From Rhizobium sp. Q54 (lineage in GTDB: Bacteria; Pseudomonadota; Alphaproteobacteria; UBA2966; CAIVPW01): DNA of 64,000 nucleotides. The DNA is taken from positions 31,674 to 95,673 of the forward strand of contig CAMDCA010000002.1 in the NCBI GenBank assembly GCA_945889645.1, in the 5' to 3' direction. Both the position numbers and the translations under genes were made by a program. Position 1 is the stretch's first letter, and every line of letters starts with the position of its first letter. Below the pieces are notes generated by a model. It ran no database searches, was not told where the DNA came from, and worked only from the letters and a program-made list of their open reading frames with translations. Below are positions 35,584 to 37,641 of this stretch, piece after piece.

Positions 35584-35616
35584 AAGCCCGCCTACTCGGC
35601 GGGCTTTTGCTTTTCG
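35584..35616 (+). terminator. Intrinsic terminator overlapping the yciB 3' end
   Basis: AAGCCCGCC-tactc-GGCGGGCTT followed by ttgctttt. Confidence 0.75.
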
Positions 35617-36197
35617 GGGTCGGGAAGCTGGTGGCGGTTCATCAGCGGCATCTGGGCCAGGCTGAACGCCAGCACCATCGGCAGGAAGCCGAACAGCTTG
35701 AAGCTGACCCAGGTGTCGGTCGAGAAGCTGCGCCACACGACCTCGTTCACCACCGCCATGACGACGAAGAACGCCGCCCAGCGGATGGTGAGCTTGCGCC
35801 AGCCCTCCTCGTCCACCTGCAGCACGGTGCCCAGGACGATCTGCAGGAAGTTGCGCCGGGTCACCAATCCGAACGCCAGGATGGCGGCAAACAGCGAATA
35901 GATGATGGTCGGCTTGAGCTTGATAAACAGCTCGTCGTGCAGGAACAGGGTCAGGCCGCCGAACACCAGCACAACCACGGCGGTCACCAGGGGCATGGCC
36001 GGTACCCGGCGCTCCATCCACAGCGACGCGACGAACGAGACGACGATCGCCACCATGAAGGCGGCGGTGCCGGCGAAAATCCCCCAGCGGCCGTTCGAGA
36101 CGAAGAACACGACCAGCGGGCCGAGCTCGACGAACAGGCGGACGAACGGATTGACGGGCGAACGGGCGGCCGCGGGGGAGGAAGGAGCGTTGCTCAT
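35592..36197 (-). CDS. yciB: Inner membrane-spanning protein YciB (septation protein A family)
   Basis: LGPLVVFFVSNGRWGIFAGTAAFM...WMERRVPAMPLVT. Confidence 0.93.
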   Translation of the reverse strand: MSNAPSSPAAARSPVNPFVRLFVELGPLVVFFVSNGRWGIFAGTAAFMVAIVVSFVASLWMERRVPAMPLVTAVVVLVFGGLTLFLHDELFIKLKPTIIYSLFAAILAFGLVTRRNFLQIVLGTVLQVDEEGWRKLTIRWAAFFVVMAVVNEVVWRSFSTDTWVSFKLFGFLPMVLAFSLAQMPLMNRHQLPDPEKQKPAE

Positions 36198-36283
36198 GGT
36201 GGGGCGACTTTAGCCCATCGTCCCGGAGGCAGCCGGCCGTTTTACTTGGGGCGCGAAGTATAGATTTGGGTGCCAGAAATGAA

Positions 36284-36314
36284 GCGGGCGCCGGCCTTTC
36301 GGCGCGGCGCCCGC
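36284..36314 (-). terminator. Hairpin downstream of the 27-aa KPA peptide ORF
   Basis: GCGGGCGCCG-11 nt-CGGCGCCCGC perfect 10-bp stem; minus-strand tail TTCATTTCT. Confidence 0.6.
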
Positions 36315-36335
36315 GTTCAACTCGCTAGCGCGAGA

Positions 36336-36419
36336 CTACTTCTTGGTCGGCTTTCCGGCCGGCTTCGCGGCAGGCTTCGGCGCGGGCTTACCCGCGCTAC
36401 GGTTGGGCATATTGGCCAT
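36336..36419 (-). CDS. Putative 27-aa Lys/Pro/Ala-rich peptide
   Basis: MANMPNRSAGKPAPKPAAKPAGKPTKK; RBS-like AGGGAG upstream on the minus strand. Confidence 0.5.
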   Translation of the reverse strand: MANMPNRSAGKPAPKPAAKPAGKPTKK

Positions 36420-36451
36420 CGAGTGGCTCCCTACAAGGCTTGATTGCGGAC

Positions 36452-36543
36452 GAGCCGGCAGCGCAGAAACGTGGGGTGACCCAAGACCCCGGCTTTTCCG
36501 GCTCGACCCCAGGGGTGGTAGGCACCACCCTTGGGACGGGGTC
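36452..36543 (-). promoter_or_regulatory. Structured 5' leader candidate upstream of the KPA peptide
   Basis: Nested complementary arms: 36505-36510/36538-36543 enclosing 36513-36519/36524-36530, and 36452-36458/36498-36504 enclosing 36473-36477/36486-36490. Confidence 0.45.
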
Positions 36544-36590
36544 CATTTTGTACTTCCACTAGCTGATTGCAATAGGAAAGTCGGCGCGCC

Positions 36591-36622
36591 AAGAAAAAAC
36601 TGCGCGCCGACTCATCGGCGCG
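36591..36622 (-). terminator. Intrinsic terminator downstream of ftsY
   Basis: Minus strand CGCGCCGA-tgag-TCGGCGCG-CAGTTTTTTCTT. Confidence 0.75.
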
Positions 36623-36711
36623 GCCGCAACAGGCGATGCGGATTCTTGGGCCGCTCTTCGGAGCGGCCGGCGGCGCCAAAGGCAAAGTATTCGCTTCTGC
36701 CGGAAGGCAGA

Positions 36712-37641
36712 CTAGGCGTCGAGACCGACCAAGGCGCGGGCGAAGGCCTGGGCATTGAAGGGCTGGAGATCCTCGGCCTTCTCGCCGACGCCGATGAAGT
36801 GGATCGGCAGGCCGAATTCTTCGGCCAGCGCGATCAGCATGCCGCCGCGCGCGGTGCCGTCGAGCTTGGCCATGATGAGGCCGGTGACCTGCACCAGGTC
36901 GCGGAAGGCCGCGACCTGCGAGCGCGCGTTCTGCCCCGTGGTGGCGTCGAGCACCAGCAGCACTGCGTGCGGCGCGCCGGCATCGACCTTCTTCAGCACG
37001 CGGACGATCTTGGCGAGTTCGGCCATCAGGTCGGCCTTGTTCTGCAGGCGGCCCGCGGTGTCGACCAGCAGCACCTCGGTGCCGGCAGCCTTGGCCTGGG
37101 TCAGCGCATCGAACACCAGGCCGGACGCATCCGAACCCGCTTCGCGCGCGATGACCGGCACACCGGCGCGCGTGCCCCAGGCCTTGAGCTGCTCGATGGC
37201 GGCGGCGCGGAAGGTGTCGCCGGCAACCAGCGACACCGAGCGGCCTTCGGCGCGATAGCGCGTCGCCAGCTTGCCGATGGTGGTGGTCTTGCCGGTGCCG
37301 TTGACCCCGACGACCAGCACGACGAACGGCTGGTGGGTGGTGATGTCGAGCGGCAATTCCACCGGCTGCAGGACGGCGGCGATGGCATCGGCCAGGGCGG
37401 TGCGGGCCTCGCCGGCAGGGACGTGCGCACCCCAGCGCTTTTCGGCGAGCTTGGCGGCGATGCGGGCCGAGGCCTGCACGCCGAGGTCGGAGGCGATCAA
37501 CAACTCTTCGAGATCGTGCAGCGTCGCGGCATCGACCTGCGCCTTGCCGAACACGCCGGCGAGGCCCTGGGACAGGGCGCCGGCGGAGCGGCTGAGGCCC
37601 GCCTTGAGGCGGCCGAACCAGGAGGCGGGAGCGTCGGTCAT
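36712..37641 (-). CDS. ftsY: Signal recognition particle-docking protein FtsY
   Basis: VVGVNGTGKTTTIGKLATRYR; DTAGRLQNKADLMAEL. Confidence 0.97.
   Translation of the reverse strand: MTDAPASWFGRLKAGLSRSAGALSQGLAGVFGKAQVDAATLHDLEELLIASDLGVQASARIAAKLAEKRWGAHVPAGEARTALADAIAAVLQPVELPLDITTHQPFVVLVVGVNGTGKTTTIGKLATRYRAEGRSVSLVAGDTFRAAAIEQLKAWGTRAGVPVIAREAGSDASGLVFDALTQAKAAGTEVLLVDTAGRLQNKADLMAELAKIVRVLKKVDAGAPHAVLLVLDATTGQNARSQVAAFRDLVQVTGLIMAKLDGTARGGMLIALAEEFGLPIHFIGVGEKAEDLQPFNAQAFARALVGLDA

Follow-up and report, generated by a model that had tools for sequence, protein, structure and literature searches.

The spacer between ftsY and ispZ/yciB seems empty of genes, and the question is whether it holds decayed sequence or a unit of its own, for a small protein or a regulatory RNA, as was proposed in a preliminary description. 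The locus was followed up in a window of 64,000 nucleotides, by which we mean the whole stretch of DNA analysed, from a genome of 2.33 Mb (101 contigs, 95% complete) belonging to a freshwater alphaproteobacterial MAG lineage, for which the isolate names point to a lake origin. Among the exact-pattern matches, the named records are MAGs, entered under the names Alphaproteobacteria bacterium K_Offshore_80m and 'Rhizobium sp. Q54'. The latter label, carried by two contigs of MAGs in which the leader motif occurs (L055 and L057), is probably wrong there; the matching genomes group with the small-genome family of the source genome.

The spacer between ftsY and ispZ/yciB

Both flanking genes lie on the minus strand, ftsY at 36712-37641 with an SRP54 GTPase domain and ispZ/yciB at 35592-36197 with a match to Pfam IspA (intracellular septation protein A). 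Between them the same strand carries, in this order, the ftsY hairpin, a promoter-like block, a folded leader, the motif AGGGAG, an open reading frame of 27 codons and a GC-rich hairpin of 10 bp. The terminator-like hairpin of ftsY with its T-run (minus strand, 36593-36622) is outside the unit and marks its upstream border, as had been proposed; the hairpin proper spans 36603-36622, with a stem of 8 pairs and the tail CAGTTTTTTC, including TTTTTT. What follows is a compact, self-contained unit of less than 300 bases (minus strand, 36284-36582). Judged from its sequence, it is probably an autonomous, monocistronic and lineage-specific microprotein gene, in which a structured leader at the 5′ end would control or stabilise the mRNA.

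The upstream end of the unit is formed by a block at 36545-36582 on the minus strand, GACTTTCCTATTGCAATC...GTACAAAAT, with the core TTGCAnT-N12-GTACAAAAT. This core is exact in all five genomes of the genus, with one exact copy in each, and the surrounding stretch 36547-36599 is 87-89% identical to G001 and G004. A search of the block for a standard or consensus sigma-70 match gave none, and its role as a putative promoter is deduced from position and conservation.

At the other end, the hairpin GCGGGCGCCG...CGGCGCCCGC (minus strand, 36284-36314), present with its 10-bp stem as first described, is kept in five of five relatives (G001-G004 and G007). In G003 it reads GCGGGCGCUGG...CCAGCGCCCGC, with a C-G pair changed to U-A by compensation. 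It resembles a terminator, with a weak tail: the following UUCAUUU is not a good U-run. Further downstream, at 36229-36265, an inverted repeat TACTTGAG-nn-CTCAAGTA is found in G001, G002 and G004. In G002 it extends over the stop codon of a convergent gene of the SAM-hydrolase type. In the source genome, where no such gene stands between the unit and ispZ, the repeat is shrunk to TACTT...AAGTA.

Besides the source genome, a DNA search of 30 relatives detected the unit in each of the four further members of the genus, at 72-78% identity. When it was compared piece by piece, promoter block, leader, open reading frame and terminator clearly outscored shuffles in G001 and G004; the scores over shuffles were weaker in G002 and G003, most of all for the promoter block. 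In relatives, the spacers flanking the unit on the ftsY side (36600-36711) and on the ispZ side (36198-36269) score no better than shuffles or only slightly better, and the stretch between leader and start codon, which is short at 28 nt, has no conservation score that stands out. The surroundings differ between genomes. Small genes, one of them in G001 resembling a 17-kDa surface antigen, separate ftsY from the unit in G001, G002 and G004, and a gene for a SAM hydroxide adenosyltransferase converges on it from downstream in G002. Since the make-up of the unit stays constant while its neighbours change, its independence is supported. Both parts of the initial alternative, small protein and regulatory RNA, find support in the sequence: the peptide shows constraint on coding and the leader constraint on structure, both considered below. 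The initial view of the locus as an independent unit is supported. Stems and peptide are both conserved in close relatives, and the refutation that had been set in advance for this point therefore failed. As for a minus-strand transcript start expected between 36540 and 36600, it is in this interval that the conserved promoter-like block is placed.

Outside the genus, the search of the 30 relatives found only the open reading frame and the terminator portion, in one genome of another genus of the same family (G007), where they sit beside ftsY and are followed by a GYD-domain gene. The sequence in front of them (L006, 1501-1720) forms another leader, whose two hairpins are GUGAACC...GGUUCAC and CGGGU...ACCCG; this suggests that the leader was replaced at a retained microprotein gene. 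Viral contigs gave no match, and literature searches, with most subscription papers outside their coverage, found no description of the unit. Other occurrences of the sequence GGTGGTGCCTACCA were set aside: those in the genus genomes have one mismatch, and an exact copy in G005 lies within coding-like sequence.

The structured leader

The leader comprises roughly 100 nt (minus strand, 36448-36546) and is predicted to fold into a three-way junction, which is closed by P1, a short helix GGA/UCC joining 36542-36544 with 36448-36450. The hairpin P2 occupies 36506-36537, and P3, a longer and interrupted hairpin CGAGCCGG...CCGGCUCG with the apex GGGU(C/A)ACC, extends over 36451-36505. Two hairpins had been described here, at 36452-36504 and 36505-36543. 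Both are real, with their registers shifted to 36451-36505 and 36506-36537. The outer arm GACCCC/GGGGUC (36538-36543 with 36505-36510) can form in the source genome and is not the register conserved in relatives.

Several analyses argue for this fold. The region 36284-36548 folds better than all of 200 dinucleotide shuffles (z of -2.85). For a plain MAFFT alignment of the five leaders, RNAalifold gave -40.7 kcal/mol versus -21.8 +/- 3.1 for column shuffles, a z of -6.0 which weakens to -2.9 for the reverse complement, and the minus strand is therefore favoured. In a model-fitted alignment, which is biased towards structure (the plain alignment gives largely the same pairs), 93.7% of cells are paired and both sides have changed at six pairs, distributed across P1, P2 and P3. 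Sliding the partners by 1-3 columns reduces pairing to 27-56%. In this five-genome alignment, covariation is stronger than in any of 500 shuffles and in every control with slid partners, at a depth limited to five leaders of which two are near identical. A conserved and covarying fold in the 5′-UTR, as is expected of a cis-regulatory leader, is thus present.

A covariance model built from the leader (R1) detects one copy per genome in all five genomes of the genus, with 74-115 bits. In the rest of the order none of its matches was convincing, and under stricter filters no leader was detected in 288 other genomes across the class. The next-best match, in G007 (L053, 28.5 bits, E 0.04), lies inside a coding sequence and was taken as chance, as was one in G010 (L054, E 0.68). 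Searched against the window, Rfam matched only a tRNA elsewhere in it; on the region of the unit, the best values (E 1-2.7) belong to unrelated families, far under their gathering scores.

Position and conservation would be compatible with a riboswitch-like or protein-binding attenuator, in which a metabolite or protein bound at the junction would switch translation of the peptide. A three-way junction in a 5′-UTR, together with an invariant tip in P2 and the conserved apical GGGU(C/A)ACC of P3, is what such an element might look like. However, no alternative fold or expression platform shared by the genomes was seen, the leader stands at one gene in one genus only, and Rfam offers no match beyond chance; we regard this possibility as rather improbable. 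In numbers, the predicted unpaired probability across genomes is 0.35-0.84 for the Shine-Dalgarno sequence and 0.24-0.77 for the start codon, neither consistently low nor high. Because pairing of the Shine-Dalgarno sequence varies from genome to genome, the predictions give no support to a simple switch by sequestration; a leader that stabilises the mRNA, or that is bound by a partner at the tip of P2, would fit better.

The tip of P2, GGUGCCUACCA, is invariant over a lower stem that covaries. This is a pattern expected of a recognition site, and it leads to the main rival of an autonomous microprotein gene with cis-acting leader, namely a dual-function RNA, whose folded 5′ half would act in trans by base-pairing or protein titration while the small open reading frame supplies a second, independent product. 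The leader (~125 nt up to the start codon) is longer than the peptide-coding part, as noted earlier, a putative promoter and terminator of its own are typical of sRNA genes, and VcdRP with its protein of 29 aa provides a precedent (PMC8672173). Constraint on the coding part, as deduced from sequence comparison in the next section, would support translation, which is likewise expected of a dual-function RNA. Yet most of the most invariant letters are located in a stem and not in a single-stranded seed, and G007 keeps the peptide with a different leader, so that what stays constant is not the RNA part. We consider a dual-function RNA unlikely, if clearly worth keeping in mind.

The open reading frame and its peptide

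On the minus strand, AGGGAG (36427-36432) is placed 7 nt before an ATG at 36419, which opens a frame of 27 aa, MANMPNRSAGKPAPKPAAKPAGKPTKK, ending with its stop codon at 36336 (36336-36419); sequence and positions confirm what was first reported. Each of the six homologues, including that of the second genus, has AGGAG or GGGAG with similar spacing. These homologues (n = 6, among them G001-G004 and G007) have 20-28 aa and the common ending KPA(G/A)KPTKK. Over alignable codons dN/dS is 0.02-0.45, the substitutions fall mainly on third positions in most comparisons, and all insertions and deletions are multiples of three. The pattern of changes between the aligned sequences indicates that the open reading frame is under purifying selection.

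A further feature within the frame is a short hairpin (GCGGGnAAGCCCGC; GCGGG-nAA-GCCCGC) at 36336-36400, which is retained at the nucleotide level in four of six homologues. The last stretch of the frame, AAGCCGACCAAGAAGTA, is nucleotide-identical in all six. Together they hint that a constraint at the RNA level may be added to the coding one. Should the unit be a non-coding structured RNA only, with the open reading frame a by-product of GC-rich sequence, this hairpin and the identical last codons would find an easy explanation, and the leader fold is indeed the best-supported structural element of the locus. Against this stand the coding features: length changes keep to multiples of three in the frame and not in the leader, dN/dS is low with substitutions concentrated at third positions in most comparisons, Shine-Dalgarno sequence and spacing are conserved, and the frame is kept where the leader is not. 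A purely non-coding RNA is therefore very improbable in our judgement.

Longer frames were rejected. A frame of 78 aa, in phase with the small one and starting from TTG at 36572, is closed in the extension of G002, where 31 aa remain open; moreover, leader lengths among the relatives do not differ by multiples of three and the additional residues are not conserved. For a leader-spanning frame from 36546 (MDPVPRVVPTT...), G002 lacks the ATG.

The peptide is strongly basic, rich in lysine, proline and alanine, and without a hydrophobic segment; its KPA and KPT repeats are regularly spaced. Peptides rich in KPA match easily by composition alone, and apart from the five members of the genus and G007, the matches of the peptide profile are compositional or weak. 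A match in G377 (L078) is a KPA stretch within a longer protein, and a DNA match in G005 (L007) falls in the lysine-rich end of a longer gene, with a clpP-like gene behind it; both reflect composition only. Pfam and NCBIfam profiles compared with three homologues (maximal E of 10) gave no match, a search with low power at 20-28 aa, and solved structures in the PDB yielded no relative, a comparison which likewise has little power at such length.

Proposed working and known systems

For the autonomous microprotein gene we envisage the following course. The block at 36545-36582 would drive a single transcript of ~260 nt starting near 36542-36546, and the leader would fold at its 5′ end and act in cis on the mRNA of the peptide. 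There it may shield the 5′ end from RNases, offer the P2 tip to a partner, or both; such a partner could tune translation, which would start from the ribosome-binding site lying ~16 nt beyond the junction. Action in cis is assumed because of the position of the leader and because the second genus has the open reading frame with another leader. Since open reading frame and terminator persist beside ftsY in G007, the peptide appears as the more widely shared component. The leader, which differs there, appears as a lineage-specific 5′ addition, as expected if it serves the peptide. From its charge and its want of hydrophobic residues, we would guess that the product is most likely a disordered microprotein binding nucleic acids or ribosomes. 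A more speculative variant, to which we give little credence, is an autoregulatory pair in which the invariant P2 tip of the leader would be bound by the very peptide encoded behind it, the basic KPA peptide, making the unit a minimal RNA-binding feedback gene of ~260 nt.

Known structured 5′ leaders of bacteria, such as riboswitches, ribosomal-protein leaders and others in Rfam, share with the unit a covarying fold directly upstream of the ribosome-binding site and a conserved tip. In contrast to them, its leader has no family match and no visible expression platform and is confined to a single gene in a single genus. On the protein side, bTHX is a very small basic ribosome-associated protein, strongly basic and extended at 20-30 residues. 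The peptide of the unit seems to share these general traits; it differs by its regular KPA/KPT repeats and matched nothing in Pfam, NCBIfam or the solved structures. A parallel in architecture is VcdRP of Vibrio cholerae, a dual-function RNA encoding a 29-aa protein; pairing by VcdR relies on a run of cytosines, and citrate synthase is the binding partner of VcdP (PMC8672173). Like VcdRP, the unit would be a free-standing short transcript that combines an RNA segment of regulatory character with a tiny protein (29 aa in VcdRP, 27 aa here); no sequence relation is claimed, and cytosine pairing and citrate synthase binding are features of VcdRP. Compared with these systems, the unit is a lineage-specific case of a microprotein gene with structured leader and is assigned to no named family. 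It illustrates that a selected gene of RNA leader plus protein, with less than 300 bases, can occupy a seemingly empty housekeeping spacer while matching no searched library. The covariance model and the peptide family now available for freshwater Alphaproteobacteria can be searched directly in metatranscriptomes, and, because a second genus has the same open reading frame behind a different leader, the unit offers a compact case in which to study how microprotein genes acquire structured leaders.
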